Source: Streptomyces taklimakanensis (lineage in GTDB: Bacteria; Actinomycetota; Actinomycetes; Streptomycetales; Streptomycetaceae). Taken from it: a stretch of DNA of 64,000 bases. The stretch is taken from positions 2,358,001 to 2,422,000 of the forward strand of contig NZ_WIXO01000001.1 in the NCBI RefSeq assembly GCF_009709575.1. Reading direction: 5' to 3'. Under the pieces are notes generated by a model, which had not been told where the DNA came from, ran no database searches, and saw only the letters and a list, made by a program, of their open reading frames with translations. The position numbers and the translations under genes were made by a program. Within the stretch, counting starts at the first letter, position 1, and each line of letters opens with the position of its first letter. Positions 6,244 through 20,855 of this stretch are shown one piece after another.

Positions 6244-6278
6244 GGTGGTTCCCTCCTTCCCTGGGAGCCGGATCCGAG

Positions 6279-7166: not shown

Positions 7167-7188
7167 GGAAGGCTCCTTCCACATGCGG

Positions 7189-7216: not shown

Positions 7217-7287
7217 GGTTCGGTGTTCGTGTCGGCGCCCGGCTCGGTGTCCGGTCCGGGAGCGGCCCGTGCCCACGGGGCCGCGGG

Positions 7288-8745
7288 TCAGGACAGGGCC
7301 GCCCAGATCGCGTTGGAGTCGGCCACCACGGTGGACGGGTTGAACGAGGCGGGCAGCGAGGTCTGCCCGGTGCTCGACAGTCGCCCGTGCCGGACGAAGG
7401 CGCCGGGCATCCGGGCGCTGCCGGCCGGGGCGTTGCCGATGCCGGCGCCGCGCGCGAAGCCGGGCCCGTCGCCCTTGTCGGACGGGCCGTTGACCAGCAG
7501 CGCGATCCAGTAGCTGCCGGGCTGGGCGGAGTAGGGGGCGTCGAGCGGGATGACGATCGTGCGGCCCCGGTTGGCCGGGATCGCCCCGGAGAGGGATTCG
7601 GTGACGCCCACCCGCTGCCCGGCGCTGGTGTACAGGCCGGCGTAGGAGTTGCTGCTGAGCGTGCCCCCGACGTACCCGGGGGTGTAGAACACCACGTTGG
7701 AGACGGTGTGCGGCGCGTGCAACGGGACGCCGATGAGGTACAGCCAGCCGTTGATGCAGTACTGGGGCGTGGTCGCGCTCGTGGTGGCCGGGTCGAAGGA
7801 CCACCCGGCGAAGCCCAGGGCGGCCGGGGCCCAGGTGCCGGCCGCCGACACGGCGTCCACGTAGGAGCGGCGGGCGAGCTGGTCGCCGGTGGCCGGGTCG
7901 GCGGAGGTCGAGGGCGGGACGGTGAACGTCTTGGCGCCCGTGACCGTCTGGCCACCGGCCAGCAGCACGGCCTCGCCGGCGGGCACGGCCGAGACGTCGC
8001 CCGCGCTCAGCTCCACCGCGCCGGTGCGGCCGTTGACGGAACTCACGGGCACCTCGTCGGCGGTCAGGTAGCGGCCGTCGGCCGTCGCCGGATCCAGGGC
8101 CCCGACGTCGGCGGCCGTCAGCACCACCTCGCCGGTGAGTCCGTTGACGGAGGCGACCGCGCCCCCGGTACCGGCCGGCAGGTGCTCGGCGGGCACCAGG
8201 CCCTGGGCGTCCAGGGAGGCGACACCGCCGGGAGCGCCCACCGAGGCGGCCGGTACGGCGGCCACGTCCGCGGCGTCCAGGACGATGTCGGCGTCGGTGT
8301 GTCCGTTGACCGACCGCACCGCCCCCGGCTCGCCGGGCGGGCCCTGCGGACCGGGCTCGCCGGGCGGGCCCTGCGGGCCGGGAACGGCGACGTAGTCGGG
8401 GGTGGCGGGGTCCACCGGAGCGATGTCGGCCAGGTCCACCCGCGGCCGCGCGGTGGGCAGCACGATCCGGTACGTGCGCTTCCGGGACAGTCCGGAGAGC
8501 TGTTCGGTGACGGTGTAGGCCCACTCGGACGGATTCCAGCCCTCCCCGTCGGTGGCGGGCAGGACGGTGTCGATCCGGCCCTCGTCGTCCAGGGCGACCA
8601 CGGTCGGGCCGCCCAGGATGACGTCGGTGTCGGCGTGGGTGAGCAGCGCGGGCGGCCGGAACTCGACGGTGCCGGTCATCGGCCGTCCGTCGGGGGTCAG
8701 GTACCGCGCGGTGACGGTGACGGTGGGTATGGATTCGGGCAGCAT
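7288..8745 (-). CDS. Tail fibre protein with collagen-like and SVNG repeats
   Basis: A 485-residue fibre. The N-terminal 110 residues form an unassigned beta-type domain. Residues about 118-136 are a collagen-like run of two copies of GPQGPPGEP. Then come three copies of a repeat resembling SVNGxTGxVxLxAADV, common in phage tail fibres and spikes, and a C-terminal domain of about 200 residues that should carry the receptor-binding tip. Collagen-like stalks and these repeats both form trimers. The gene follows the baseplate-like genes in siphophage order; AAGGAGG precedes the ATG. Target specificity cannot be read from sequence. Confidence 0.85.
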   Translation of the reverse strand: MLPESIPTVTVTARYLTPDGRPMTGTVEFRPPALLTHADTDVILGGPTVVALDDEGRIDTVLPATDGEGWNPSEWAYTVTEQLSGLSRKRTYRIVLPTARPRVDLADIAPVDPATPDYVAVPGPQGPPGEPGPQGPPGEPGAVRSVNGHTDADIVLDAADVAAVPAASVGAPGGVASLDAQGLVPAEHLPAGTGGAVASVNGLTGEVVLTAADVGALDPATADGRYLTADEVPVSSVNGRTGAVELSAGDVSAVPAGEAVLLAGGQTVTGAKTFTVPPSTSADPATGDQLARRSYVDAVSAAGTWAPAALGFAGWSFDPATTSATTPQYCINGWLYLIGVPLHAPHTVSNVVFYTPGYVGGTLSSNSYAGLYTSAGQRVGVTESLSGAIPANRGRTIVIPLDAPYSAQPGSYWIALLVNGPSDKGDGPGFARGAGIGNAPAGSARMPGAFVRHGRLSSTGQTSLPASFNPSTVVADSNAIWAALS

Positions 8746-8786
8746 CGAGGTGCCTCCTTGCTCGTCGGTGGGGAAGTGGCGGCGCG

Positions 8787-9497
8787 TCAGGACTGGACGC
8801 CGTACAGGGCCAGCGGGCGGCAGCGCACGGTGCCGCCCGCTGTCGCCACGGCCTGGACCTCGAAGGTGACCGTCGCGCCGTACTCGGCGTTCAGCAGCTC
8901 GGTGAACTCCAGGCCCTCCGGCCCTCCCTCCGGGCCCACCCGCTCGCCGTCGCACACCAGCCGGATCCGGGCGTCCGCGGTGCCCTCCGCCGCGACGTGG
9001 CAGTACAGCCTGGGGTGCTGGACGATGCCGGGGCCGCGGAAGAGCGTCGTCCAGGCGGCGGAGTCGGTGGACTCCCAGCGGCCCACCGCCACCGGCGCGG
9101 GCAGCGGATAGGGCACGTAGGGGCGGGCCAGGCCGCGGTGTCGGGCGTCGTCGGCGACGACCACGTTGCCCTTGCGGTCGAGGATCTGCACCGGCTGGTC
9201 GGGCAGGGTGTCGGGGCTGCCGGTCCACACCGTCAGCGCCAGGGAGCCGTCGTCGCGGCGCACCACCAGGCCCTGCTGCGGTTCGCTGCCGGGCCGGTCC
9301 GGTTGGACGCGCCCCAGGTAGAGCAGGTCCTCGCCGCCGGGGGTGCGCACCCGCAGCCGGCCGCCGTCGCCGATGACGACGTCACCGCCGCTGATCCGGT
9401 TCATCGGCGGGCTGGTGTTGGCGCTGCCCATCAGGTCGCGCACCTGCCGCTCCAGGGTGCGCAGCCGGTCCAGCAGATCGGTGGGGATGATGGCCAC
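8787..9497 (-). CDS. Minor tail protein
   Basis: A 236-residue protein starting with a short coiled coil (LLDRLRTLERQVRDLM), then a beta-rich region with GDVVIGDGGRLRV and a C-terminal domain. The coiled-coil start followed by a region describing an object plus property resembles minor tail or base-fibre proteins of Streptomyces and mycobacterial siphophages. It starts with GTG three bases after the upstream stop; GGAAGGAG lies inside the end of the preceding gene, so translation is probably coupled. No enzyme motif is seen. Assignment rests mostly on position between the tail protein and the fibre. Confidence 0.65.
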   Translation of the reverse strand: MAIIPTDLLDRLRTLERQVRDLMGSANTSPPMNRISGGDVVIGDGGRLRVRTPGGEDLLYLGRVQPDRPGSEPQQGLVVRRDDGSLALTVWTGSPDTLPDQPVQILDRKGNVVVADDARHRGLARPYVPYPLPAPVAVGRWESTDSAAWTTLFRGPGIVQHPRLYCHVAAEGTADARIRLVCDGERVGPEGGPEGLEFTELLNAEYGATVTFEVQAVATAGGTVRCRPLALYGVQS

Positions 9498-9500
9498 GGA

Positions 9501-10601
9501 TCAGGCTCCTTCCAGGTAGAGGGTCGCCGTCTCGGCCTTGGTGCGCTGCGGCGGTGTGACGGCCAGCCCGACGATCCGGTACCGGTCGTCGGCTCCCTCC
9601 TGGTGCCACAGGTCGTGGATGCGCAGCCGCAGCCGGGCGCCCAGCAGGGCCGGGGAGATCCGGCCGTCCATCAACACGGTGACCTGCGGGATGGTCTCCG
9701 GACGGCGGTGCCGGGCCAGTTCGGCGCGGGCGACGGAGTCCAGCACGGCCTCCTCGCGGACGGAGGAGTGGTCGGAGCTGGACTCCAGCCGCGGCCAGCC
9801 GCCCGCGATGTCGGCGGCGGCCACCCGCCGCGCCGTCAGCGGCACCGACTCCTGGGACTGGTCGGAGTTGGCCGACTCGCCCCGGGCGACCCACACGTTG
9901 GCCTGCACGGTGGCGTCCGAGGGCAGGCTGTAGGTGAGGACCGCGCCGGGGTGGTCCAGCACGATGTCGCCGTGTCCGGTGTGGATCCTCGGGTGGCCGA
10001 GCCGGAGCCGCTTGACGCGGCGGCCCCGTGCGTCGCGGTGGCAGTGCACGCGCCACTCGAAGCCGTCGTCGAGCCGGGCCAGCTTGTCGATCAGTTCCCG
10101 CACCCGTGCCAGGCCGGTGTAGGCGTAGGCGAAGTCCCGCCGCACCCCGGACGCCTCCGTCCCGTACGTCAGGCCGATGTCGCCGCCCGGTTGGGCCTGG
10201 ACGTGGTCGACGAGCGCGCGGACGATGTCGAACTGGTCGGTGGCCGTGCCCACCACGTCGCCGGAGAGGATCCGGTGGTCGAGGTAGGAGTCGAAGGTGG
10301 CGGCCTGGAACTCGACCTTCGTCCGGCCCTGTTCGTCCGACTGCGGGGTGCAGGTCCACAGCACGCCGCCCCACCACACGTCCCCGTCGCGCTCCAACCA
10401 GACCGCGGTGCGGCCGGGGCGGAGCGCGGCGCGCGCCCGGCGGGCGAGCGCCGCGTCCGGCAGCGGGACGGTGGCGGTGAGCGAACCGGGCTTGCCGATG
10501 TAGTCGTCGAACTTGGCCTCGGTGAGCGGCAGGACGTCCACCACCCGGTCGGTGCGCAGGTCGCAGAAGACGGCGCGGTAGACGGCGGTCCGCCCGCTCA
10601 T
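9501..10601 (-). CDS. Siphovirus ReqiPepy6 Gp37-like tail protein
   Basis: A 366-residue protein resembling the Gp37-like minor tail family (tail-associated or baseplate hub-like proteins in actinobacterial siphophages). Recognisable features are the N-terminal LPLTEAKFDDYIGKPGSLTA segment, the W-W-G-G-x-L-W-T pattern near residue 80, and QAATFDSYLDHRIL, where family members describe a local frame of a hub barrel. Its start overlaps the stop of the gene upstream (ATGA). It lies between a structural tail protein and a minor tail protein, in the position of a Tal/hub gene. The family call is from memory of the pattern. Confidence 0.75.
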   Translation of the reverse strand: MSGRTAVYRAVFCDLRTDRVVDVLPLTEAKFDDYIGKPGSLTATVPLPDAALARRARAALRPGRTAVWLERDGDVWWGGVLWTCTPQSDEQGRTKVEFQAATFDSYLDHRILSGDVVGTATDQFDIVRALVDHVQAQPGGDIGLTYGTEASGVRRDFAYAYTGLARVRELIDKLARLDDGFEWRVHCHRDARGRRVKRLRLGHPRIHTGHGDIVLDHPGAVLTYSLPSDATVQANVWVARGESANSDQSQESVPLTARRVAAADIAGGWPRLESSSDHSSVREEAVLDSVARAELARHRRPETIPQVTVLMDGRISPALLGARLRLRIHDLWHQEGADDRYRIVGLAVTPPQRTKAETATLYLEGA

Positions 10602-11725
10602 TCGGCCGGCTCCGCGGACTCGTAGGTGAGCGTCGCGGCGATGTGCGTGCCGCTCTCCCAGACCCACGGGGTGACCGCGTCCACCAGACCGCCGTGCCGG
10701 GAGGCGGTGCCGTCGAGGTCGCCGGAGGACACCTCCAGCTCCAGGTGGCCGGGGGTGGTCAGGCGCACCCGGGCGATGCGCCGCTCCCGCAGGCCGAGTT
10801 GGAGTCCGGCGAAGCCGACCGCGTGACTGGTTCCGGACGCCCGGACCGGCAGGGAGAACCGCCAGTTGTCGCCCGAGCCCCCGGAGCCGAACCGGGTGGT
10901 CGAGCCGAAGTAGAGGCCCAGGGAGGCGTGCACCAGGGTGCCGGTGTGGACGTAGCGGCACTGGACCGTGGCGTTGCCGAACGAAGGGGTGGACCGGCCG
11001 GTGCTGGTGGTCCACTCCGGCGTCCACTCCCGCCACCGGGGAGTGGGCGGGTAGGGCTGCCAGGCGGTGCCGTCCCACCGTTGCAGGCCGCCGGCGCCGA
11101 TGTCCCGGTACTGGCCGGGGTAGCTGCCGGGGATGTCCCTGGGCCACTCCTCCGGCACGATGCCGCCGACCGCGACGGTGGCGCGGCGCAGGTCGCCGAC
11201 GGCCGAGGTCCAGTCGATCCCGCCGGTGCCCTCCGAGGCTCCCGCGGGGACCCGCACCGCGGCGAGGGCGAGCGCGGCGCGCGGCGTGGCCGGGATCTTT
11301 GGGGTGGCGGCCGGGGTGCCCTGGACGATCTCCAGGGCCGCCTCGGCGCGGCCGGACTCGGTGTCCTGCGTCTCGTCGTACACCCGCAGCACCACCAGGT
11401 CGATGCGCGGATTGTTCGGGTCGCCGTCGGCGAAGGTGAGCGGGGTGTACTCGGTGACGGCGACCGGGTAGGCGCCGGCGGACTCGTCGCCCTGGACCAC
11501 GGCGCGGCCGGAGGCGACCATGGCGGTCATCCCCGCGGACTGGCCGTAGACGTAGAGCCCGGACAGCGCCCACGCGCCGTCCGGGGAGCCGGGGATCACG
11601 CCGCCGCGCGTGGCGAGCTGTCCGGCGGGGGTCATGGTGCCGGTGGGGGCCAGACGGGTGTCGGCGCGGGACTGTCCGGTGCCGTTCTCGGTGCGGTTGA
11701 GCAGCCATGCGGTGCGCACGGGCAT
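10598..11725 (-). CDS. Phage tail structural protein
   Basis: A 375-residue protein. The N-terminal half (residues 10-160) has a pattern seen in tail proteins that anchor fibres: a start near NRTENGTGQSR, then FADGDPNNPRIDLVVLRVYD and ALAAVRVPAG. The C-terminal half looks like a beta-sandwich with Trp-rich strands (WREWTPEWTTST), possibly a carbohydrate-binding or fibre-tip domain. AGGAGG precedes the ATG. The gene overlaps the Gp37-like gene by four bases. I do not recognise a named family beyond phage tail. Confidence 0.7.
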   Translation of the reverse strand: MPVRTAWLLNRTENGTGQSRADTRLAPTGTMTPAGQLATRGGVIPGSPDGAWALSGLYVYGQSAGMTAMVASGRAVVQGDESAGAYPVAVTEYTPLTFADGDPNNPRIDLVVLRVYDETQDTESGRAEAALEIVQGTPAATPKIPATPRAALALAAVRVPAGASEGTGGIDWTSAVGDLRRATVAVGGIVPEEWPRDIPGSYPGQYRDIGAGGLQRWDGTAWQPYPPTPRWREWTPEWTTSTGRSTPSFGNATVQCRYVHTGTLVHASLGLYFGSTTRFGSGGSGDNWRFSLPVRASGTSHAVGFAGLQLGLRERRIARVRLTTPGHLELEVSSGDLDGTASRHGGLVDAVTPWVWESGTHIAATLTYESAEPAE

Positions 11726-11771
11726 GGGGTCCTCCTGTGGTCGTGGTGGTGGGTGCCGGGGTCGGGACCGG

Positions 11772-12728
11772 TCACCAGTGGGCGTCGCGCCAGCGCACGG
11801 TGACCGTGGCGCCGGGGTCGGGGACGGCGTCCTCGGAGCGGAAGGCCAGCGGGGTCTCGCCGGGTTCCAGCAGGAACAGTTGCTCGGGGGCCGAGCGGGC
11901 GGTGGCGGTGTACAGCCGGGAGGCGGTGCCGTTGAGGACGACCGTCCCGGCCTGGGTGTCCACGGTCAGCACCTCGCCGGCGGCGAGGGTGATGCCGTAG
12001 CTCAGCCGCAGCCCGTCCGTCAGCCGGGTCAGCGACGGGCGGTGCACCGGGCCGCGGAACTCGACGACCGGGTGCGCGGCCGTCTCCCCGGAGTTGCGGG
12101 CGGTCGCGGAGCCGGTGGAGCCGACGGTGCCCCAGTCCAGCGGCCAGGCCAGACCGGCCCCCGGGGTGCCGTCCGGGGCGCCGGGGGCCGTCCAGGCCAG
12201 GCCGCTCTCCGGCTGCGGCAGGCGCAGCACGGTCCGCTGCTCCCGGACGCCGAAGCGGCGCGGGTCGGTGGCCACCCACTGCAGCTCGGCCCTGGCGGCG
12301 CCCTGGACCACGTAGCCGCGCCCCTGGGGGACGACGCGGCGGCTGACGCGGGCGCGGCAGGCCAGCGTCTCGCCGTGCAGCCGCACCGCCAGCCACCGTT
12401 CGCCGCCGTCGGGGACGGTGGCGGTCCGGAAGCCGCGCATCGTGCCGCGCGCCTGTTCGACGGTGTCCGGCAGCAGCCAGACGGTCGCCGAGACGGTGCG
12501 CGGCTTGGCCCAGCGCGCGCCGGGCCAGGCGCCGTGCCGGTCGGGCAGGGCGACGTCGCCGGTCTCCAGGTCCGGCAGGTCGTCCCAGCCGGTGATGCCC
12601 TTGGCGTCGATCTGGTAGGGGGTGCCGGGGCCGAAAAGAGCCCCGGCCCACTGGATCTGCCCGTCGCGGGTGATCAGTGAGCCGGGGGGTGTCTCCTGGC
12701 CGTTGTGGAGTTGTCCGGTGTCGATCAC
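11772..12728 (-). CDS. Distal tail (Dit)-like protein
   Basis: A 318-residue protein. Features match phage distal tail components: an N-terminal half ending in RARVSRRVVPQGRGYVVQG and LQWVATDPRRFG, followed by a galectin-like second half with the ARNSGETAAHPVVEFRGP stretch typical of Dit-type proteins. In the family it forms the ring joining the tail tube and the adsorption apparatus. GTG start with GAGGAC upstream. It directly follows the tape measure genes, the standard place for Dit. The call combines position and pattern. Confidence 0.75.
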   Translation of the reverse strand: MIDTGQLHNGQETPPGSLITRDGQIQWAGALFGPGTPYQIDAKGITGWDDLPDLETGDVALPDRHGAWPGARWAKPRTVSATVWLLPDTVEQARGTMRGFRTATVPDGGERWLAVRLHGETLACRARVSRRVVPQGRGYVVQGAARAELQWVATDPRRFGVREQRTVLRLPQPESGLAWTAPGAPDGTPGAGLAWPLDWGTVGSTGSATARNSGETAAHPVVEFRGPVHRPSLTRLTDGLRLSYGITLAAGEVLTVDTQAGTVVLNGTASRLYTATARSAPEQLFLLEPGETPLAFRSEDAVPDPGATVTVRWRDAHW

Positions 12729-12750
12729 GGTCGGTGTCCTCGCTTCCTGT

Positions 12751-14082
12751 TCACGGTGCCGCTCCCGTCCCCGCCGGCAGCACCTCGGCGCCCGGCTGCG
12801 CGGGGTGGGCGGTGCGGGCGAGGAAGAGCAGGTCGTCGGCGACGCCCAGCGGCCCGCGCTCGGCGGGTTCGGTGTAGTGCTCGATCCGTCCGCCCCGCAT
12901 CCGCGCGGAGGCGGTGTGGCGGGCGGCGCGGTCCATCAGCCGGCGCAGCGCGGGCAGCGGCAGGACGGCCTCGGCCTCGCCCGCCTCGGCGACGACCGCC
13001 GGCACTCCCCCGCTCCGGGGCAGGGCGACACCGCCGGCGGCCAGCTGCGGGATCTTGGGGATGTTCACGCCGAACTTCTTGCCGAGGATGCTGACGCCGA
13101 GGCTGTCGAGGCCGTCGATCAACCAGTTGGCGAAGGCGATCAGCCCGTTGATGGGCGCCTTGAGGACGTGCAGCACCAGCTGCATGCCCGACTCCAGGAA
13201 TCCGGCGATCCCGCCCAGCACGCGGCGCGTCGCTCCGGCGACCCGGTCGAACATCGCGCGGGGCCCGGTCGTGAGCCAGTTCAGCGCCGAGCGGACGGCG
13301 CTCCTGATCCGGCCCATGGTGCGGCCGGCGATCGAGCGCAGCGCGCCGCCCGCGGAGGAGACGGTCCGCCGCAGGGTGCCCATGGGGTCGCGCACCATGT
13401 TCGCCAGCCACTTCACCACCGCGGTGACGACCGTGAGATAGCCCCGGACATAGCCGGTGGCGATCTTCACCACCGTCCGCACGGCGGGCTCGATCACCTT
13501 GGCGACCGTCCGCACGCCCTGCGCCAGGGCCGCGCTGCCCTGCCGGATGATCCGCTGCCCGGCCTCGGACCGCGCGGCGGCGTCGACCAGGTAGAGGACC
13601 AGCGGGGCGACCAGGGAGAGCGCCAACCCCCACGGATTGGCCTTCATCACGGTGTTGACCAGCTTCATCACCCCGGCGCCCAGGCGCAGTCCGACGCCGA
13701 ACACGCCGCCGAGCCGACCGAAGAGGCCGGCGCCCTTGGAGATGCCGCCGGAGAGCGTCGCCGCCTGGGCCGCGCCGCTCCTGATCCGTTTCAGTTCCCG
13801 GTTGGCGGCGGTGGCCTTGGGCCGGGCGGCGGTCAGCCGCGGGTGCGCGGCGCCCGCCCGGCGCCCCAGGCCCGCCAGCCCCTGGCCGGCGGCCCCGGCC
13901 GCGGGGAGCGTGCGCCGCAGTTCGGTCGCGGAGCGCTGGACGGAGCCGCGTACGGCCGCCGCCGCCCGCTGCGCGGCCCGTACGGCCCGGGTGTTGGCGG
14001 CCAGACCGGCGCGGGTCCGGCCCAGCGCTCCACCGAAGCCGGCGAACGCGGGGCTCGCGAGGGCCAGTTGGTTCAGCGGCAC
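12751..14082 (-). CDS. Tape measure protein 2 (paralogue)
   Basis: A 443-residue protein, basic and Ala-rich, with long helices at the N-terminus, hydrophobic segments in the middle and a C-terminal segment with FGV-IP-IP-LA-GGV, PRSGGVPAVVAEAGEAEAV and a closing IEHYTEP. These C-terminal features are shared, nearly word for word, with the upstream tape measure gene, so the two are paralogues. Tape measure proteins set siphophage tail length and leave the tail tip on infection. At 443 residues it is short for the family (often over 1000). GTG start with GAGGAGG upstream. Confidence 0.75.
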   Translation of the reverse strand: MPLNQLALASPAFAGFGGALGRTRAGLAANTRAVRAAQRAAAAVRGSVQRSATELRRTLPAAGAAGQGLAGLGRRAGAAHPRLTAARPKATAANRELKRIRSGAAQAATLSGGISKGAGLFGRLGGVFGVGLRLGAGVMKLVNTVMKANPWGLALSLVAPLVLYLVDAAARSEAGQRIIRQGSAALAQGVRTVAKVIEPAVRTVVKIATGYVRGYLTVVTAVVKWLANMVRDPMGTLRRTVSSAGGALRSIAGRTMGRIRSAVRSALNWLTTGPRAMFDRVAGATRRVLGGIAGFLESGMQLVLHVLKAPINGLIAFANWLIDGLDSLGVSILGKKFGVNIPKIPQLAAGGVALPRSGGVPAVVAEAGEAEAVLPLPALRRLMDRAARHTASARMRGGRIEHYTEPAERGPLGVADDLLFLARTAHPAQPGAEVLPAGTGAAP

Positions 14083-14146
14083 GGTCTGCCACCTCCTCTC
14101 GTTCCCCCCGCACCCTCCGGCCCCGGGCGCGGTGCGCTCGGGGCCC

Positions 14147-15361
14147 TCATCCGCGGGCCTTGGCCAGGAGCATCAGCGCGTCGGCGGTCCGCTGCGGGTC
14201 GCCGGTCTCGGCGGCGTAGTAGTGCTCGATGTGCAGTCCGCCGGCACCGGCCGCGGCGGCGCCCGTGCCGTGGGGGCCGGGCGTCCCCCGGCCCGCCCTG
14301 GCCGCGGTCGGCCCCAGCAGCGAGTCCAGCTTGGACAGCGGCAGGACGGCCTCGGCCTCGCCCGCCTCGGCGAGGATCGCGGGCACGCCGCCGGACCGGG
14401 GGGTGACGACACCGCCCTCGGCGAGCCTGGGGATGGTGGGCAGGCTGACGCCGAAGGTCTTGCCGCCGACCATCGGCACCCAGCCGGGGATCGACACCCT
14501 GATGCCGTTGATGCGCCGGATCGCCCGGTTGATGATGTCGATGACGCCGTTGACCGGCCCCCTGACACCGTTCTTGACCTTGCCGAAGGCCCGTGAGGCG
14601 ATGCCGGCGAGCCGGCCCCAGATCTGGCTCATCCTGTCCCGGACGGCGCGGAACGCGGCCGGGATCGTGGTCCTGATCCAGTTGACGACGGGCTGGACGA
14701 CCTTCTTGATGCCGTTCATCACGGCGCCGATGGTGTTGCGGACGGCCCGGACGGCCGTGGTGATGACGGCCTTCCAGATGGCGAAGTAGGTCCTGACGAC
14801 CTTCACGATGGCCTTGACCACCACGGACACGGCCGTCCTGATGCCGTTGAAGACCGACTTGAAGATCCTGCCCAGGCTGCTCAGCAGCGGCCCGATGACC
14901 TTCATGGCCTTCTTGAGGACCTCGCCGACCACGGTGAAGACCTTCTTCATCACCCGCTGCATGGTCTTCGACTGGGTGGCCATCGCGACGATCTTCTCGA
15001 TGACCGGCGTCAGCAGCGAGAGCAGCGTCCCGAAGATGTTGCCCTTCATCTCCTTGTTGAGCTGCTTGAAGCCGCCGGAGGCCTTCTTGGCCCCCTGCTG
15101 CATCCGCGTCATCCGCGGACCGCTCTTGGCGGCCTCGCGGCCCAGCTTGGAAACGGAGAGGGCGGCCTGGTCGGCCGCCCTCTTCATCGTCGTCAGTTCC
15201 TTGTTGGTGCGTCTCGCGCCGGTGGTGATCCGCGTGACGCTCCGGTCCGCGGCGGCCGCCTGCCGGCCCAGGCCGGTCGCGGCCCGTCCGGCCGTGTCCG
15301 AGGCCGATTTGAACTGCCGCAACGTGCCCGAGGCCCGTTGCAGCGCACTGCTGAGTGACAT
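14147..15361 (-). CDS. Tape measure protein 1
   Basis: A 404-residue, strongly basic protein. Residues 1-110 are helical and polar; then come several amphipathic or hydrophobic helices (VVVKAIVKVV, AVITTAVRAV) and the C-terminal segment FGVSLPTIPRLAEGGVVTPR, SGGVPAILAEAGEAEAVLPL and IEHYYAAE, typical of actinobacterial phage tape measures. The ATG at 15361 has GGGAGGG upstream; a TTG two codons earlier is possible. It lies in the correct place between the coiled-coil gene and the paralogue. If one residue spans about 1.5 angstrom, it would measure a tail of roughly 60 nm. Confidence 0.8.
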   Translation of the reverse strand: MSLSSALQRASGTLRQFKSASDTAGRAATGLGRQAAAADRSVTRITTGARRTNKELTTMKRAADQAALSVSKLGREAAKSGPRMTRMQQGAKKASGGFKQLNKEMKGNIFGTLLSLLTPVIEKIVAMATQSKTMQRVMKKVFTVVGEVLKKAMKVIGPLLSSLGRIFKSVFNGIRTAVSVVVKAIVKVVRTYFAIWKAVITTAVRAVRNTIGAVMNGIKKVVQPVVNWIRTTIPAAFRAVRDRMSQIWGRLAGIASRAFGKVKNGVRGPVNGVIDIINRAIRRINGIRVSIPGWVPMVGGKTFGVSLPTIPRLAEGGVVTPRSGGVPAILAEAGEAEAVLPLSKLDSLLGPTAARAGRGTPGPHGTGAAAAGAGGLHIEHYYAAETGDPQRTADALMLLAKARG

Positions 15362-15391
15362 GGTCAACCCTCCCGGGCCCGCTCGCCGGCC

Positions 15392-15937
15392 CTAGCCCAG
15401 AGCGGCCCTCAACAACTCGATCTCCGCACGCAGGCGCGCGATGTCCCCTCGCGTGCGGCCCAGTCCCATGAATCCCCGACTCGGCTCCTGTCGCGGTGCG
15501 CGCGCCTCGGACACCCGCTGACGCATGTTCCTCAGGTCGCTCGACGTCCGCCGGGCCTCCTCCTGTGCGGAAGCCGCCGTCCGGCGGACCGTCGCGACGC
15601 TCTGCTCGACCTCCGCCCTGGTGACCGGCGGCTCGTTTCCGAGCTGCGGCCACCTCCGGTTCAGCTCGGTCTCGAGATCCTGGATGTAATTCGGCTTCCA
15701 GACCTGCACACCGGCGACCGTCAATCCGCTCTCGTCGAACTTCACCAGGTCATAGGCGAAGGTGCCCAGCGAGATGTCCGTCTTGAACGCCTGAAAACTG
15801 GCGTACAGCCCCTGCACCGAGTCGTTGACGACCTTGAAGTGCTCGGACCACCACTGCTGGACGCTCTCAAGGGCACTGGTCGTCTCCTCGGCGCCCGGCG
15901 CGATGTAAAAAACGTTCTCCCCATCGGCTTCCGACAT
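15392..15937 (-). CDS. Coiled-coil protein of the tail island, unknown function
   Basis: A 181-residue protein. The first 85 residues look globular (VQQWWSEHFKVVNDSVQGLY, then FDESGLTVAGVQVWKPNYI). The rest is mostly helical, from VTRAEVEQSVATVRRTAA to a C-terminal RLRAEIELLRAAL heptad pattern. GAGGAG precedes the ATG. It is 30 bases upstream of tape measure 1 and in the same direction. I do not recognise it; a tape-measure chaperone or tail-lumen cargo would fit the place. Its codon use is slightly richer in A/T than its neighbours, like the DUF3592 gene beside it. Confidence 0.6.
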   Translation of the reverse strand: MSEADGENVFYIAPGAEETTSALESVQQWWSEHFKVVNDSVQGLYASFQAFKTDISLGTFAYDLVKFDESGLTVAGVQVWKPNYIQDLETELNRRWPQLGNEPPVTRAEVEQSVATVRRTAASAQEEARRTSSDLRNMRQRVSEARAPRQEPSRGFMGLGRTRGDIARLRAEIELLRAALG

Positions 15938-16043
15938 TTCTCCTCCTCTTCACTCGAACCGTTTCGAAAGGCCCGCACCGTAAACGCCCCGCCACTCGCG
16001 GGAGCGCGCCGCGGAATCGTGATTTCCCTTTCCCGGGCGGGCG

Positions 16044-16073
16044 TTGACGGAGCACCGGATGGAAAAGTAATCT
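16044..16073 (+). promoter_or_regulatory. Housekeeping-type promoter giving a leaderless transcript
   Basis: TTGACG (16044-16049), an 18-base spacer and TAATCT (16068-16073). The expected start point is about seven bases after the -10, on or next to the ATG at 16080, so the mRNA is probably leaderless; there is no Shine-Dalgarno sequence before that ATG. Confidence 0.7.
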
Positions 16074-16079
16074 GCCGGG

Positions 16080-16487
16080 ATGGAATTTGTGGGCCTGCTC
16101 TTCACGATCCTGAGCATCGCGATCGGCACCCTGGGGGTCAGGCTCCTGCTTCCGCACCTGCGGAACGACAGGTTCGCCCGGGGGGATTCCGGCGTCCGCA
16201 CCACGGGCAAGTGCGTCAACATGCGTTGGACCTCGGGCGGCTGGGTGTCCAGCATCATCGCCTACGAGGACGCCGACGGGGAGCGGCGGTTCGCGTCCAC
16301 CCGCGCCCGTCCGACCATCCCCGTGCACCTGGGGGGGACCGCCGAGGTCTACTACGATCCGCGGGGTCAGGCCCAGGCGGTCGTGAACGGCGAGATGCCG
16401 CCCAAGGGGTTCTACGCCTTCTGCATGGTGCCGATCGGCGTCAGCCTGACCTTCGGCGTCATGGGGCTCTACTACCTGCTGGTCTGA
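16080..16487 (+). CDS. DUF3592-type membrane protein, moron-like gene in the tail island
   Basis: A 135-residue protein with a membrane helix at 4-26, a soluble beta domain of about 70 residues (GKCVNMRW, YEDADGERRFAS, VYYDPRGQAQAVV) and a second helix at 108-133. This is the DUF3592 layout. It is the only plus-strand gene within the minus-strand tail island, has its own promoter and lacks a ribosome site. Independent transcription and opposite orientation are hallmarks of morons, which often alter host surface or immunity to other phages. That role is inference. It could also be a host gene caught in the island. Confidence 0.75.
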   Translation: MEFVGLLFTILSIAIGTLGVRLLLPHLRNDRFARGDSGVRTTGKCVNMRWTSGGWVSSIIAYEDADGERRFASTRARPTIPVHLGGTAEVYYDPRGQAQAVVNGEMPPKGFYAFCMVPIGVSLTFGVMGLYYLLV

Positions 16488-16532
16488 GACCGGGACGGGG
16501 AGGCGGCGCCCCGGCCCGGCCCCGGCACCCCC

Positions 16533-16754
16533 TCACCCGGCCCGATCGCTCCCGGCGGCCTCCATCGCGTCCTGCCAGCCGGCGGCGTAGGCGCGGGCGT
16601 CGCGGGCGTCCAGCTCCACGCGGATCGCGAGGAGCAGTCGCTCGGCGGTGGGCCCGTCGAGGTGCCGGAGTATCCCGCCCAGCAGACGCTGGAGTTCCCC
16701 GGCGGCCTCCGTCCGGGCCGTGTCCTGGTGGTCCTCGTAGCTCTCCGTTGCCAC
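16533..16754 (-). CDS. 73-residue hypothetical protein
   Basis: A short acidic helical protein ending LDARDARAYAAGWQDAMEAAG. The GTG at 16754 is chosen because GGAGAG lies nine bases before it; longer in-frame starts up to 16862 cross an A/T-rich promoter-like stretch. It converges with the DUF3592 gene. In Streptomyces such small proteins with an AAGWQDAM-like ending occur near phage-like or regulatory genes, but I cannot name a function. Confidence 0.5.
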   Translation of the reverse strand: MATESYEDHQDTARTEAAGELQRLLGGILRHLDGPTAERLLLAIRVELDARDARAYAAGWQDAMEAAGSDRAG

Positions 16755-16913
16755 CCCTATCACCCTCTCCGGCACCTGGTGCCATGTGACCTGCTTGGAT
16801 GCGTACACGGGGGTTGTGGGCGCGCAACGGAGTGGGGGATGTTGCGTACCCAGCGTCATCATACGGCCGCACCGAGCAAAAAATCGAACACAGTTTCGTT
16901 TTGGTACGGACCA

Positions 16914-16953
16914 GGGCCGTCCCCGTCCACCGGGAAGCGGGCGGGGACGGCCC
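16914..16953 (-). terminator. Terminator after the tail assembly chaperone genes
   Basis: 12-base-pair perfect stem (16914-16925 with 16942-16953), 15 bases after the stop of the chaperone fusion frame. Confidence 0.65.
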
Positions 16954-16967
16954 GCCGGCGGCCTCCT

Positions 16968-17725
16968 TCAGCCGAAGAAGCGGGCCAGCTCCCGCGCGGA
17001 GGGGCCGGAGACGGGCGCGCGCTCCGGCGCGGCGCCGGGCGTGTCGCCCAACTCCCCTTCATCCGGACCCCGTTCCCGAGGTTCCGGCCCCTCCGACTCC
17101 TCCGGCCCCTCCGGCCGCTGTCCGGGCCGGGGGACCGGCTCCGGGTACTCCGGCGGCTCGTCGTCCTCGTCGCGGTGGAGCGCGGCCGTCATCCAGTTCG
17201 CCGCCGCCAGGTGGTCCACGGCCGCGGCCAGCAGGTGCTCGGCCGCACCCCACTGGGCCGCCTCCCCGTGGTCGGCGAGGTTGACCGCACTGTCGCGCGG
17301 CAGGTGGCGGATCAGGACGGCCAGGCGGCGGGAGGAGAGCCCGCCGCGGTACCAGTCCAGGAGATCGACCCCGTAGTACCGGAGCAGGTCGGCTTCCAGT
17401 GCCTCGGCGTGTTCGTCGACGAACGCGTCGAGGCTCAGCCTTCCCCCAGGCCGAGCCCGGTGGCCTTCCCGTACGCCTCCAGGATCGCGGCGACGTCCTG
17501 CATGGAGACGTCGTGCCGGTCGAAGCGGTCGAACTGCTCCTCGCCCAGCAGCAGGCGCAGCAGGCCGTCGATGTCGTTGTCGTCCAGCTCGCGCAGGGCG
17601 CGGGCGGTGCGGCGGCTGAGCTCGCCGGGCATCTCGAAGGTGTCGCCGTCGATGGTGAAGGTCCAGGCGCGGCCCTGGGCCTCCCTGCGCTGGGCGCGTG
17701 CGGCGTTGACGTCGAACGTGGTCAT
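16968..17725 (-). CDS. Tail assembly chaperone GT fusion made by -1 frameshift
   Basis: Predicted 252-residue product: the first 95 codons are the shorter chaperone, then a -1 slip at 17441-17447 moves ribosomes into a second frame of 157 codons. That frame contains the conserved phage segment LEADLLRYYGVDLLDWYRG and RRLAVLIRHLP, and runs from the slip site to 16968. The first in-frame start codon (GTG at 17219) lies after the conserved segment, so the segment can only be made by frameshifting. The C-terminal half is Pro/Glu/Asp-rich and ends PSARELARFFG. G and GT fusions chaperone tape measure and tube assembly in siphophages. The slip is inferred, not measured. Confidence 0.75.
17435..17725 (-). 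CDS. Tail assembly chaperone G
   Basis: A 96-residue protein beginning MTTFDVNAARAQRREAQGR, with the TFTIDGDTFEMP and LDDNDIDGLLRLLLGEEQFDRF segments typical of the short chaperone encoded between the major tail protein and the tape measure in actinobacterial siphophages. AAGGAG lies nine bases before the ATG. The frame stops at 17435, one codon past the slip site, giving the short product; a fraction of ribosomes make the fusion instead. Confidence 0.8.
   Translation of the reverse strand: MTTFDVNAARAQRREAQGRAWTFTIDGDTFEMPGELSRRTARALRELDDNDIDGLLRLLLGEEQFDRFDRHDVSMQDVAAILEAYGKATGLGLGEG
17441..17447 (-). other. Putative -1 ribosomal slip site G GGG GAA
   Basis: On the minus strand the zero frame reads CTG GGG GAA GGC TGA. 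Slipping back one base lets the glycine tRNA pair again with GGG, and translation continues AGG CTG AGC in the chaperone fusion frame. It sits two codons before the stop, as in known tail chaperone slip sites. Confidence 0.65.
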
Positions 17726-17781
17726 ATCCGGTCGACTCCTTGTCGGGGTGTCGGGGTGTCGGGATCGATACGGAAGCGGAA

Positions 17782-17807
17782 GGCGCCGGGCCCGAGGGCC
17801 CGGCGCC
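17782..17807 (-). terminator. Hairpin downstream of major tail protein gene
   Basis: 11-base-pair perfect stem (17782-17792 with 17797-17807) and a CGAG loop. It probably limits readthrough or protects the 3' end of the abundant tail tube message. Confidence 0.6.
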
Positions 17808-17852
17808 GGTGCTGTGCCGTGTGGTGCGGTGCGGTCCCGCGGGCGGGCCGGA

Positions 17853-18437
17853 TCAGGCCGGGGTGGTGCCGGCGAAGTCGGGGTCCTTGACCAGCCAGGT
17901 GGCCAGCGGGGTGGCGGCGTCGACCGCCATCGCCGTGAAGGTGACGCCGAGCTTCAGCGAACCCTTGCGGTTCATCTCGACCTCGTCGGTGTCGGTGACC
18001 TGGCCACGCGGCAGGACGAAGCGGTAGACGACCTCCTCGCCGTCGGTGAACTCCAGGCCCAGCGACCGCTCGTCCGGGATCGGGTCGGAGAGCACGTCGT
18101 ACTGGTACACGCCCGAGCCGGTCGCGGTCTCCCTGACCTCGCCGCCGCCGAAGTACAGCGGCAGGGTGTCCGGGTTGAACTGGAGCATGCTGAACTTCAC
18201 CGTCATGTCCCGGTCCTCGTAGATGAAGCGGGCCGGGCCGACGGACTGCCAGGTGTCGACCTGGGAGGTCTTCTCCTTGCGGCCGAACTTCACGCCGTCG
18301 GAGCTGGTGTAGCCGACGTCGGTCCAGCCGGTGCCCCACTCGGAGGCGGTGTCGGCCGGCGCGGCGGTGCCCACCGGGGCGACGAGGATGCGGCCGTTGC
18401 CGGCCACGCGGATCTGGTTGGGGTTCATACCTGCCAT
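17853..18437 (-). CDS. Major tail (tube) protein
   Basis: A 194-residue protein with the pattern of actinobacterial siphophage tube proteins: N-terminal NPNQIRVAGNGRILVAPVGT, GWTDVGYTSSDGVKFGRK, a central VDTWQSVGPARF and DMTVKFSMLQFNPDTL. In the family, hexameric rings stack to form the tube. No sheath gene or contractile baseplate gene is present, so the tail should be non-contractile. The gene is flanked by hairpins on both sides. GAGGAG precedes the ATG by about ten bases. Confidence 0.88.
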   Translation of the reverse strand: MAGMNPNQIRVAGNGRILVAPVGTAAPADTASEWGTGWTDVGYTSSDGVKFGRKEKTSQVDTWQSVGPARFIYEDRDMTVKFSMLQFNPDTLPLYFGGGEVRETATGSGVYQYDVLSDPIPDERSLGLEFTDGEEVVYRFVLPRGQVTDTDEVEMNRKGSLKLGVTFTAMAVDAATPLATWLVKDPDFAGTTPA

Positions 18438-18487
18438 GTGAGGCGACTCCTCGGTTCGGGCGCGCGGGCCGTCCCGCGCGCATGCGA

Positions 18488-18512
18488 AGGGCCCCGCCGG
18501 GGGCGGGGCCCT
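18488..18512 (-). terminator. Hairpin upstream of major tail protein gene
   Basis: 11-base-pair perfect stem (18488-18498 with 18502-18512) with a three-base loop, between the tail completion and tube genes. It may be an attenuator or a 5' stabiliser. Confidence 0.5.
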
Positions 18513-18534
18513 GGATGGGGTGGCGCGACCGCCG

Positions 18535-18951
18535 TCAGGCGGGTCGGGCCGGGGTGAGCGACAGCCGCACCGTGGTCAGGTAGCGGTTGGCGTCGAGCCG
18601 GTTGTAGTCGGGCAGCCAGCGGACACCGTCCGCCTCGACCACGTCGGTGACCGTGGCCGTCCCGTGGGTGGTGCCGCGCAGTCGCAGCAGCGCGGCGCGC
18701 ATGCCCAGCGAGTCGGTGTGGGCCGTGGTCTTGTCCGGTCCGTAGACCTCCAACTCCACCAGTGGGTTGTCGAGGTGGAGATCGTCGATCCACGCCCCGC
18801 CGACCCGGGAGACCAGCACCACGCGCTGCGTCCCGTCGAAGTCGGCCGGTGGAACGTTGTCCACCGTCACCCCGACGAGCTCCGGCCGGTCGCTGAGGAA
18901 GTCGACGATCAGGCGCTCGACGTCCGGGAACGTGAGCAGCGGATCGACCAC
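18535..18951 (-). CDS. Tail completion / tail terminator-like protein
   Basis: A 138-residue protein beginning VVDPLLTFPDVERLIVDFL, with RVVLVSRVGGAW, NPLVELEVYGPDKTTAHT, and LPDYNRLDANRYLTTVRLSL. This matches the small tail terminator/completion proteins encoded just before the tube protein in siphophages, where they cap the tail and join it to the head. GTG start with GGAGGAGG upstream. It is the first structural gene of the island: no head, portal or terminase gene precedes it, which would be needed in a complete phage. Confidence 0.8.
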   Translation of the reverse strand: MVDPLLTFPDVERLIVDFLSDRPELVGVTVDNVPPADFDGTQRVVLVSRVGGAWIDDLHLDNPLVELEVYGPDKTTAHTDSLGMRAALLRLRGTTHGTATVTDVVEADGVRWLPDYNRLDANRYLTTVRLSLTPARPA

Positions 18952-19262
18952 ACGCCTCCTCCTTCCTTGAGAGGCGGGCGGGCCGTGCGGCCCGCCCATG
19001 ACGAACGGCGGGCCGTGACCCGGATGTGGGTACAGCTCCGCCGCTGCCTCCAAGTGTGAACCAGATCGTGCGCGCGCGCAACTAGGTGGCGGAAGAAAAT
19101 CTCCCGAAGCGCCCACGGAACGCCACTCCCCCGCTCCCTCCCGGCTTCTCCTCGAGCCACCGGCGGGCCGCGCGGCGCCCGGTGTCCGGTGTCCGGCGCC
19201 CGTGCGGCCGGGCACGACACCCCACGCGCCGACCACATCCGCGTCCCCGGAGTCGGCGGACC
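18952..19262. other. Non-coding leader and probable promoter region of the tail operon
   Basis: No gene is visible. It carries GCGCGCAAC at 19074-19082, which matches 8 of 9 bases of one arm of the operator at 19838-19859; on the minus strand this overlaps TTGCGC, which with a 17-base spacer to CACACT could be a weak promoter. A ribosome-rich GGAAGGAGGAGG precedes the first gene. Confidence 0.4.
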
Positions 19263-19292: not shown

Positions 19293-19733
19293 TCAGGCGC
19301 GACGGCGCGCGGGCACCTCCGGCCGACCGCCCTCCGGCAGGAACTGACCCGCCACCCGGACGAACATCTCCCGCTGCTCGACCGGGATGCCCAGCAACTC
19401 GGCGGCGCGCCGCAGGGTGAGCGTCCCGTCCGCCCCCTCCCCGGGGGGCTGCGCGGCGGACGCCGGCGGCAACTCTTCCGCGGTGAGTTGCCCGGAACGG
19501 ATCAGCATCTCCCGGACCGGGACCCGCAGGACCCGGGCGAGGCGGCGCATGGTCTCCAGGTCGGGCATGCTGTGCCGCCGCAGCAGCCGGGTGATCGCCG
19601 CACGGTGCACGCCCGCGGCGTCGGCGAGTCGCGACTTGCCGCCGCCCCGCGGGCTGTCGATGTCGTAGCCCCGCTCCCGGATCAGCCCCTCGATCCAGGA
19701 CGCGAAGCCTTCAAGGTCCTGAGCAGCCGCCAT
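19293..19733 (-). CDS. XRE-family repressor-like regulator of the tail island
   Basis: A 146-residue protein. A helix-turn-helix is clear at about residues 32-70: SRLADAAGVHRAAITRLLRR followed by METMRRLARVLRVP-like helices, ending LIRSG. The C-terminal half (EELPPAS to the end) is less ordered and has a second helical patch LRRAAELLGIP. It stands at the head of the tail island, reads in the same direction, and has its own terminator. Its promoter region has tandem 22-bp repeats, suggesting autoregulation. The ATG at 19733 is favoured over longer starts by its GAAGGGGG site. Repressor role is inferred from place. Confidence 0.75.
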   Translation of the reverse strand: MAAAQDLEGFASWIEGLIRERGYDIDSPRGGGKSRLADAAGVHRAAITRLLRRHSMPDLETMRRLARVLRVPVREMLIRSGQLTAEELPPASAAQPPGEGADGTLTLRRAAELLGIPVEQREMFVRVAGQFLPEGGRPEVPARRRA

Positions 19734-19758
19734 GACTCGCCCCCTTCGTGAGCGTTCA

Positions 19759-19802
19759 GCATAACGTGCTTTCGCGCGCGGCATTACGTGCTATCGAGCG
19801 CG
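19759..19802. repeat. Two tandem 22-bp direct repeats, probable operator
   Basis: Two adjacent 22-base units (19759-19780 and 19781-19802) with 19 of 22 bases identical, both containing ACGTGCT. The period is two helical turns. A TATGCT -10-like box for the repressor gene lies inside the first unit, so the site probably mediates autoregulation. Confidence 0.7.
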
Positions 19803-19836
19803 AAATGGATGGCCCGGGCGACGCTCTCGTGAAAAC

Positions 19837-19865
19837 TTGTTGCGTGCTTGCACGCAACATACGAT
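19837..19865 (+). promoter_or_regulatory. Promoter with a perfect inverted repeat filling its spacer
   Basis: TTGTTG (19837-19842), 17-base spacer, TACGAT (19860-19865). A perfect inverted repeat with 10-base arms and a two-base centre (19838-19859) occupies the spacer. A protein bound there would block RNA polymerase. It should drive the two small regulator genes at 20026 and 20604. Confidence 0.7.
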
Positions 19866-19990
19866 CATGGGGCTTCGCCTCGAACACCCGACCAGATCAA
19901 GGGGGTCGCCCCATGGCGTCCGTCGTCCGTGCGTCGGCGAGCACCGACCGACCGTCCCGCCCCGGTCCGAGCCGGCCGCGACGGTCGGAA

Positions 19991-20017: not shown

Positions 20018-20025
20018 GAAACAGC

Positions 20026-20604
20026 ATGAGCCTCCACACCGAAACGGCCCACTGGCTGGGCGCGCTGCGCCGCCAGTTCCCCGAGCTCCTCGGCGAACTG
20101 GCCCCCGGCGGCCGCAGCCCCGCCGTACCCGCCGCCACCCCCGGGCCCGTCAACCCCAGCCGCGCCACCGCCCCGTTACGCCTGCACGTCTCCGACGCCG
20201 TCCGCGACATCACCGACGGCGTGACCGAACTGGAGGAGGCCGTCCACGACCGGCTCGGTCTCCCCCGCCCGCGACGGGCCCGGGTCCCGCAGCGGATCGG
20301 ACGCGTGCTGAACCTGCTCGACCGCGTCGGGGAGCACCCCGTCCTCGCCGAGCACGTCCGGGACGAGGCCCGGAGGATGGCCCGCCGCTGCGCGCGGGTG
20401 CTGGGGGAGAGCGAGCCGATGACGGCCGTCGCCGGCCGCTGCCCGTGGTGCGACTCCGTCTCCCTGCGGGCCTTCCCCGAACGCCGCGCCGTGCTGTGCA
20501 TCAACCCCGGCTGCCGCTGTGACGACCCCGAGTGCGACTGCCGCACCGACCCCGCCCACCGGCACGCCTGGCAACGGCACGAACTGCCGGGCGGTGAGGT
20601 CTGA
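20026..20604 (+). CDS. Zinc-ribbon-like protein, probable island regulator
   Basis: A 192-residue protein. The first 130 residues are helical (ETAHWLGALRRQFPELLGEL; RIGRVLNLLDRVGEHPVL). The C-terminal part contains CPWC, then CINPGCRCDDPECDC, eight cysteines arranged like a zinc ribbon or paired knuckles. I know similar proteins in Streptomyces phage and prophage regions but no function. It lies divergent from the repressor, behind a promoter with an operator-filled spacer, and its stop overlaps the HTH gene (TGATG), so the two are co-translated. A DNA-binding or transcription-regulating role for the pair is inference. Confidence 0.65.
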   Translation: MSLHTETAHWLGALRRQFPELLGELAPGGRSPAVPAATPGPVNPSRATAPLRLHVSDAVRDITDGVTELEEAVHDRLGLPRPRRARVPQRIGRVLNLLDRVGEHPVLAEHVRDEARRMARRCARVLGESEPMTAVAGRCPWCDSVSLRAFPERRAVLCINPGCRCDDPECDCRTDPAHRHAWQRHELPGGEV

Positions 20605-20855
20605 TGCTGGTCACCGGCGCCATGGCGGCCCGTGAGGTGTCGGTCTCCTCGGCCACCATCCGCAAGTGGGTCCAGCTCGGTCGACTCGCCCCGGCCGGTC
20701 GACAGGGGCGCGCCCTGCTCTACCGCCTGGAGGACGTCTTCGCCGCGGAACGCTCCGTCCACCGGGGCGGAGCGGTCGTCGGCACGGCCGCCGACACGGC
20801 CGCCGGCTCGGAGCACCGCGCCCTCGGACCCGACGAACGGGTGAGTCGTGGTTAG
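20604..20855 (+). CDS. MerR/excisionase-type helix-turn-helix protein
   Basis: An 83-residue protein. Residues 5-55 form a winged helix-turn-helix: AAREVSVSSATIRKWVQLGRL, then GRALLYRLEDVFAAE, as in MerR N-termini, excisionases and phage helix-turn-helix proteins. The rest is a short tail. The ATG overlaps the stop of the upstream gene. No integrase is nearby, so an excisionase role is unlikely; activation or repression of the tail island is a better guess. I cannot say which promoter it binds. Confidence 0.7.
   Translation: MLVTGAMAAREVSVSSATIRKWVQLGRLAPAGRQGRALLYRLEDVFAAERSVHRGGAVVGTAADTAAGSEHRALGPDERVSRG

Follow-up and report, generated by a model that had tools for sequence, protein, structure and literature searches.

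A conserved operator-like palindrome at the three promoters of a headless siphophage-type tail cluster in Streptomyces, with a phage-type XRE repressor as its likely binder

In this study, we analysed a window of 64 kb (positions 2358001-2422000 of a 6.14-Mb Streptomyces genome) and found one type of operator-like palindrome, with the 18-bp consensus core TTGCGNGC-NN-GCNCGCAA, at three promoters around a small phage-type repressor gene (Table 1). We read this locus as the one controlling a domesticated, headless tail cluster of siphophage type, where the XRE-family repressor would hold sites at all three promoters, and give this reading a probability of about 0.73. The sites, their positions and conservation, and the genes around them are observed directly. 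A preliminary description of the same DNA had proposed operators at two divergent promoters beside a phage-type repressor, and our comparisons support that proposal.

Table 1. Features of the tail cluster and its control region, in window coordinates
Feature	Position	Strand	Basis or remark
Headless siphophage-type tail and lysis cluster	5858..18957	-	PHROGs/Pfam hits
LexA-box-like TCGAACACAGTTTCGT	16884..16899	.	Inside tail cluster; two letters off consensus
Tail operon 5' leader, with conserved GCAGCGGCRGAGCTGYNCCC at 19028-19047	18998..19047	-	Can pair with downstream arm (hairpin)
Tail-gene promoter, TTGCGC (19076-19081), 17 bases, CACACT (19053-19058)	19053..19081	-	Inferred from conservation
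Fourth operator-like site, TTGCGCGCGCGCACGATC	19064..19081	-	Over -35 and spacer of tail-gene promoter
XRE repressor gene, 146 aa, HTH_3	19293..19733	-	Domain and homology matches
Possible -10 of repressor promoter, TATGCT	19758..19763	-	Read from sequence; overlapped by repeat 1
22-bp repeat 1, GCATAACGTGCTTTCGCGCGCG	19759..19780	.	Over repressor promoter; 18-bp register 19766-19783
22-bp repeat 2, GCATTACGTGCTATCGAGCGCG	19781..19802	.	Proximal operator-like site; 18-bp register 19788-19805
Divergent-gene promoter, TTGTTG (19837-19842), N17, TACGAT (19860-19865)	19837..19865	+	Predicted
Distal operator-like site, perfect 10+2+10 inverted repeat	19838..19859	.	Conserved 18-bp core at 19840-19857
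192-aa gene, phrog_1467 (function unknown)	20026..20604	+	PHROGs, alignment
83-aa MerR-like/HTH_17 regulator gene, phrog_2474	20604..20855	+	PHROGs/Pfam

By PHROGs and Pfam matches, the cluster encodes a tail terminator, a tail tube (PF25681, E=3e-68), an assembly chaperone, two tape-measure-like proteins, a Dit-type protein, minor tail proteins, a tail fibre, an Amidase_2 endolysin (E=1e-21) as lysis gene and a phrog_5225 protein. Among the 19 cluster genes scanned in this way, none was recognised as a capsid, portal, terminase or integrase gene. The best match of the tail-tip gene (10598-11725), phrog_3398 of the category 'head and packaging, virion structural protein', speaks against headlessness, as do the weak terminase small-subunit matches of the divergently encoded MerR-like protein, which also weakly matches excisionase profiles. 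With siphophage tail genes, a lysis gene and no recognised head genes, the cluster has the gene make-up of an F-type tailocin. Two small cluster genes (15392-15937 and 16533-16862) gave no informative match in the PHROGs/Pfam scan, and the two consecutive tape-measure profile matches (14147-15367 and 12751-14082) are unexpected for a single tail. Elsewhere in the window, positions 61429-61630 match the actinobacterial sRNA Ms_IGR-5 of Rfam (82 bits), and positions 63877-63926 form a perfect 25+25 palindrome with no loop and a G+C of 0.92.

The repressor is related in sequence to the immunity repressor of the Streptomyces phages SV1, Picard and Tubberson. Its 146 residues contain only an HTH, an S24 self-cleavage peptidase domain being absent, and the two S24 places of the genome lie away from the locus, at 4.03 and 4.50 Mb. 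Searched against PDB sequences, the XRE profile gave three weak matches, two named 'Repressor' and one an XRE regulator. The product of the first divergent gene has a helical N-terminal part followed by a conserved CPxC...CxNPxC zinc-ribbon-like part; its AlphaFold model (mean pLDDT 81) found no PDB fold match at E<=0.001, the best having E 1.9. Phage TaylorSipht has a relative of this gene in its early region, and near an HNH gene at its genome end a MerR-like gene. The MerR-like protein of the window is a candidate activator of the tail genes.

Over the repressor promoter lie two adjacent 22-bp repeats, head to tail and 19/22 alike, just as had been described. They are the sole adjacent 22-mer pair with at least 19/22 identity in the 64 kb, and six first-order random sequences of equal length contained none. 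The inverted repeat on the divergent side is, as reported, a perfect 10+2+10 palindrome, but it does not exactly fill the promoter spacer, since it also overlaps 5 of the 6 bases of TTGTTG. Inverted repeats of such size are not rare in themselves, because the window holds 16 perfect ones (arms of at least 10, loops of at most 8) against 2-9 in the six random sequences; this one has the lowest G+C of the 16 (0.55), and the window has no second copy of it at up to 3 mismatches (0.00 expected from shuffles). The whole genome holds a single match to the 18-bp core (16 fixed letters) when as many as 2 mismatches are allowed. A looser consensus (14 fixed letters, at most 2 mismatches) matches 19 places in the genome against 25 for its reversed control, so that loose matches alone mean nothing; the only perfect genome match to the looser family consensus is the window site.

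The palindrome recurs at the same place in related loci. In a sample of 150 Streptomyces genomes, own included, XRE matches at E<=0.001 were present in 85, and a close relative (at least 57% identity) in our genome and 28 others; one of these, L057 in G083, has its repressor frame broken by an internal stop. A further scan, partly overlapping the 150-genome set, gave at least 50 loci and, after exclusion of L120 (39%, a Phycisphaerales MAG), 49 listed loci, namely 48 from Streptomyces and one from Microtetraspora glauca (L107); the same contig was met twice at least for L045/L087, L052/L107 and L058/L111. Counted up to 350 bases before the repressor, the window palindrome is present within 3 of its 16 letters at 42 of 49 loci among the matches listed (0.3 expected from dinucleotide shuffles) and within 2 mismatches at 36 of these 49 listed loci (0.03 expected), while L074, L083, L094, L109, L111, L117 and L119 (7/49 listed) have no site within 3 mismatches. 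With the sites conserved, the lack of conservation in related islands that the preliminary description had set down as refuting its proposal is excluded. In an alignment of 55 non-redundant loci, window included, chosen for a palindrome with at most one mismatch within 260 bp, the core TTGCG.GC..GC.CGCAA is followed on the divergent strand by a shared c.TGt.A...TG, and these loci appear to share a common promoter phase. The distal palindrome lies about 119-223 bp from the estimated repressor start in 54 of the 55 (search up to 260 bp) and 101 bp from it in L053, where it may be a proximal site.

A symmetrised weight matrix was built from the distal sites of 53 other loci, with the window left out, and run over the whole window. 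The highest score in the 64 kb fell at 19840-19857 (26.4) and the next at 19064-19081 (7.9), followed by an unrelated place at 2592 (5.1) and by 19788-19805 (4.8); three of the top four fall on the three switch promoters. At 19766-19783, the remaining proximal site, the score was weak (-3.4); the low proximal scores in the window and the three mismatches of its tail site count against our main reading. Some relatives have a clearer proximal pair, as in L038, with scores of 17.1 and 12.6 at a distance of 22 bp. The best-scoring pair is spaced by 26 bp in 26 of 54 loci and by 22 bp in 10 of the 54. We dropped a universal 22-bp proximal spacing, 26 bp being commoner and the register ambiguous by 4 bp; on these alignments a tandem pair over the repressor promoter seems to be frequent, its exact 22-bp period not general. 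One consensus fits all the sites. The idea of separate operators for the 146- and the 83-residue protein was rejected on this ground, the repeats and the inverted repeat fitting one operator type instead.

The loci come from related species, so these counts are not independent events; their kinship is addressed by a footprint among the nearest relatives and by loci of other genera. S. barkulensis (L071) and S. verrucosisporus (L072) are the nearest relatives, and each matches the window at 43/44 positions of the 44-bp repeat block (39/44 in L073) and at 19/22 of the inverted repeat. The spacer between block and inverted repeat is identical at 19/34 (L071) and 17/34 (L072) positions, i.e. 50-56%, and the stretch 19870-20025 at 84/156 and 80/156, respectively. 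Judged from these alignments, the repeat block is far better conserved than the adjoining sequence and has the appearance of a footprint. Outside the genus, an alignment search with the MerR-like protein in 121 family genomes gave matches in 27, spanning 7 of 17 genera, and the best 10 of these 27 supplied 8 out-of-genus loci. Six of the 8 have a matrix score of at least 17.6, and no matrix site was present in the other two (L198, L199). L190 has three sites between the repressor and the 192-aa gene, like the window, and in L193, L196 and L197 a strong site lies shortly before the tail terminator gene.

At the divergent promoter, TTGTTG and TACGAT are indeed separated by 17 bases, as earlier stated. 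This phase is retained by the nearest relatives (TTGTTG-N17-TAGGAT), but the wider family suggests TTGCGN-N17-NANNNT, 3 bp further, which in the window would read TTGCGT (19840-19845), N17 and GATCAT (19863-19868). A stringent sigma-70 scan called no promoter at the TTGTTG/TACGAT region. On the repressor side, several homologues have TAAACT or TAGAGT at the position corresponding to the possible -10.

The site at the tail promoter, missed in the preliminary description, has a perfect left half and three mismatches in its right half. Relatives share AGTTGC-N-TCACANT and then GCAGCGGCRGAGCTGYGCCC upstream of the tail terminator gene, and the conserved element TCACANT..GCAGCGGCRGAGCTG at this promoter is a candidate activator box. 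Our alignment of tail promoters comprised 41 rows, of which 9 have tail genes and repressor on one strand and 32 have them on opposite strands, and left out L074, L076 and L079 (no leader-pattern match, L076 being a near variant) as well as L090, L103, L107 and L111 (short or duplicate). The palindrome was found within 3 mismatches in 34 of the 41 aligned loci, window included, and within 2 in 22 of them: 0 mismatches in 5 rows, 1 in 3, 2 in 14, 3 in 12 (the window among them) and at least 5 in 7. Its right half is lost in L044, L053-L055, L058, L083 and L084 (7/41), and L078, a three-mismatch row, has a poor matrix score (-5.4). The tail operon shares the strand of the repressor in the window and the loci nearest to it, and most other loci have it on the opposite strand, behind the MerR-like gene. 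Module and tail operon are thus flipped relative to each other among genomes (the window as against L035-L058), each retaining its own promoter. As the tail genes keep their own promoter in either orientation, control must reach the tail promoter in trans.

Behind this promoter lies the conserved leader, whose motif has one exact occurrence in its own genome, that of Table 1. Among 295 genomes of the genus it occurs with at most one mismatch in 78 and exactly in 45, one copy each; the one-mismatch matches carry little weight, because a reversed-pattern control also matches in many genomes. Thirty leader-match loci were examined, 15 of them with the exact motif, and 13 of these 15 also have the tail terminator gene; of the two without it, L125 has other cluster genes and in L147 none was detected. 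The leader has no Rfam match at the gathering threshold. A hairpin with the downstream arm can be folded in most of the 41 rows, with pairing in 95.1% of cells against 92.7 in shuffles and 14 two-sided changes against 4.9, a value reached in 0 of 500 shuffles; the hairpin pairs with a two-sided change (2 vs 1.9) and the further pair types (9 vs 9.6) are not above shuffles. L035, L038 and L040 keep the 5' arm with no matching 3' arm, so part of the leader conservation may be at the DNA level. Positions 18998-19047 are a possible new regulatory RNA or an element of the initial transcribed region. We put forward only as a speculative suggestion, with a low probability, that the leader hairpin and the non-standard TTGCGN-N17-CACANT promoter form a dedicated late-gene control element worked by the 192-aa and MerR-like proteins, for instance an antitermination or activator site. 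If true, the control of late genes here would differ from that by Q, PrtN or sigma-type phage activators, and several genera would have retained it to serve a headless tail.

For the sites themselves, XRE appears to be the likelier binder. Two of them overlie its own promoter, the family shows hardly any change in either the HTH region of XRE or the operator, and the SV1-type relatives have different HTH residues and lack the operator. Seven loci (L049, L085, L086, L088, L105, L112 and L115, mostly of one branch) have an intact repressor and the sites with no 192-aa or MerR-like gene detected, which points to XRE as the binder. This argument is weakened by five loci with a repressor and neither sites nor detected 192-aa/MerR-like genes (L046, L074, L109, L117 and L119), since sites and gene pair then partly go together; L080, L081 and L094 (contig ends within 1 kb upstream), L048 (a fragment of the 192-aa gene) and L057 (the broken repressor frame) were set aside here. 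The same five loci would suit a different assignment, in which the MerR-like or the 192-aa protein binds the sites and activates or represses the promoters while XRE binds elsewhere. It could also draw on the MerR-like HTH, nearly invariant in alignments and about as much so as that of XRE, and on the MerR-like gene accompanying the repressor in 19 of 24 regions. The seven loci that keep sites and repressor with no gene pair detected, and the overlap of two sites with the repressor promoter itself, argue against this assignment, which we consider unlikely.

The seven loci without the gene pair have a phrog_5225 gene nearby (L049 also an endolysin) and no tail genes detected in the stretch, and are possible lysis-only derivatives. 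In G012, the repressor (L048, 1.67 Mb) is megabases away from the 192-aa and MerR-like genes, which have the leader and an operator-like site with them (L153, 8.97 Mb); no tail terminator, tube or chaperone gene was detected, and a transposase-like gene was seen nearby by eye. In L042, the regulator module (3182-5405) stands, by eye, beside rpoC with no tail genes detected in the stretch, and a second palindrome (4448-4465, 1 mismatch) lies just behind the repressor, preceding other small genes.

Lambda-like switches have a Cro-type gene sharing operators with the repressor, and a repressor that cleaves itself. The layout had been called lambda-like in the preliminary description, and the divergent promoters with repressor-type operators bear this out, but an adjoining Cro-type gene, an integrase and an S24 domain are missing from the locus by our PHROGs/Pfam scan, and the variable distance from the distal palindrome to the repressor start also counts against the term. 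A full bistable switch of that kind, with the repressor activating itself through the tandem sites and contending with a Cro-like antagonist for the operators, would fit tandem sites at a repressor promoter lacking a good -35 and a divergent operon that encodes a DNA-binding protein. That protein, however, is MerR-like and so of another family, no Cro-type gene adjoins the repressor where SV1-type phages have such a gene, and the spacing varies as just stated; we regard this switch as quite improbable. The SV1, Picard and Tubberson immunity regions resemble the window in their homologous repressor (29-38% identity over the matched parts; 37% for SV1, E=5e-8) and in a divergent arrangement at an early promoter. 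They differ from it in that the neighbour of the repressor is annotated as Cro in Picard and Tubberson and as 'transcriptional repressor' in SV1, an integrase follows the repressor, and the TTGCGNGC palindrome has no match within 2 mismatches in the three phage regions. By descent the repressor goes with the SV1-type immunity repressors, while operators, neighbours and HTH residues differ. That the switch was merely inherited in a decaying prophage remnant and is no longer used might be argued from the broken repressor frame of L057 and from L042, with its module and no tail genes detected. We hold this to be very unlikely, as the sites are far better conserved than their surroundings in many species and other genera, and mitomycin induces what is presumably the same cluster family in S. 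venezuelae, by the accessible text of PMC9380542. Chance repeats in G+C-rich sequence, for which one could cite the 16 inverted repeats and the control-level frequency of the loose consensus genome-wide, have a negligible probability, being already refuted by position-specific conservation.

DNA damage probably enters the circuit through LexA boxes in or beside the cluster, to judge from motif matches. In its accessible part, PMC9380542 gives the LexA box consensus as tCGAAC-N4-GNNCGa and reports a 'predicted prophage cluster' in S. venezuelae whose genes are induced by mitomycin C, vnz_21525 526-fold and vnz_21545/vnz_21550 190-fold. The tail cluster of G015 (L186) has both LexA boxes given there, exact and 3.9 kb apart, together with the palindromes and leader of the family; from this part of the paper we infer that the tail cluster family is that 'predicted prophage cluster' and, likewise, that G015 is S. 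venezuelae. The LexA-like boxes of the window are only imperfect. The one at 16884-16899 lies in the part of the cluster where the S. venezuelae-like genome carries the published box TCGAACACAAGGCC; the other, at 19880-19895, was not kept, none being present at that place in L071 and L072. Taken alone, TCGAACACAAGGCC is non-specific: 62 of 392 genomes contain it, often some 100 kb away from the tail cluster or with no such cluster present, and a conserved copy of this LexA-box-like 14-mer lies at about that distance in many Streptomyces genomes, for example G004:C2:3710952 and G015:C1:4826404. A box with at most one mismatch to CGAACNNNNGTTCG stands between the divergent genes in 18 of 76 loci, all of one group; two more loci have another one-mismatch match in this interval, and two row pairs are the same contig met twice. 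In the 420 bp before the repressor, the consensus of that paper occurs with at most 2 mismatches in 39 of 74 loci against 12.5 expected, and in 10 of 74 rows, which represent 8 distinct contigs and belong to one branch, a box stands at a fixed distance of 29-30 bp from the palindrome. A one-mismatch box lies about 200-300 bp before the tail gene in L037, L039, L043 and L075-L078. Adjoining the internal LexA-like box of the window are two widely spaced inverted half-operators (16820-16849, GCGCGCAAC ... GTTGCGTAC), which may represent one more regulatory site within the cluster.

Returning to XRE as repressor, we infer from the sequence how the circuit would run. The repressor would bind, probably as a dimer, a single 18-bp palindromic operator type. 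Its strong site would be the one that covers -35 and spacer of the promoter for the 192-aa and MerR-like genes; a weaker tandem pair at the repressor promoter would let it regulate itself, and a further site would cover the promoter of the tail operon. Once repression is lifted, the divergent pair would be made and transcription of the tail genes would start at the promoter that precedes the conserved leader. The likely activator driving them would be the MerR-like protein, possibly aided by the 192-aa protein, and LexA boxes would be the probable input here.

By analogy, such a switch would work in the way that PrtR/PrtN control pyocins, and LexA would probably add a second layer. In the accessible text of PMC8609362, the R/F pyocins of P. 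aeruginosa combine a phage-type repressor and a headless tail cluster including lysis genes, as our locus does, and are linked to DNA damage, as our locus probably is. Their repressor has an operator at an activator gene's promoter, to which the conserved, predicted operator-like site at the promoter of the divergent regulator gene would correspond in the window. PrtR, by the same text, is self-cleaved with RecA, whereas the XRE repressor has no such domain, and, unlike in the PrtR/PrtN system, a repressor-type site also lies directly on the tail promoter and the MerR-like protein is only a candidate activator. We therefore do not assign the switch to the PrtR/PrtN type, the repressor lacking a cleavage domain and the tail promoter carrying a site. 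Rhizoviticin, an F-type tailocin of Allorhizobium vitis, likewise joins a headless siphophage tail and lysis genes with a phage-type repressor, but, according to the accessible text of PMC10811719, that repressor is of the LexA family and replication-related genes are retained, in a different phylum and with different genes. For the S. venezuelae prophage cluster, the accessible text of PMC9380542 deals with LexA only, in contrast to the predicted XRE operators described here.

Our literature search, which covered few subscription papers, did not find this XRE switch reported, nor any non-contractile tail particle described for Streptomyces; for S. coelicolor and S. lividans, contractile systems are already in the literature. 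No such non-contractile particle was found described, yet the exact leader motif of the cluster is present in 45 of the 295 genomes of the genus that we sampled. The repressor locus looks like the off-switch of a tail-shaped particle kept in reserve by some soil bacteria. If the cluster family is rightly identified among the most mitomycin-induced genes of S. venezuelae in the accessible text of PMC9380542, the switch would add a phage-derived second layer to its control. The operator code also offers a defined handle, as deleting the small repressor gene or an operator should switch the cluster on, and this would let the role of the particle be asked.
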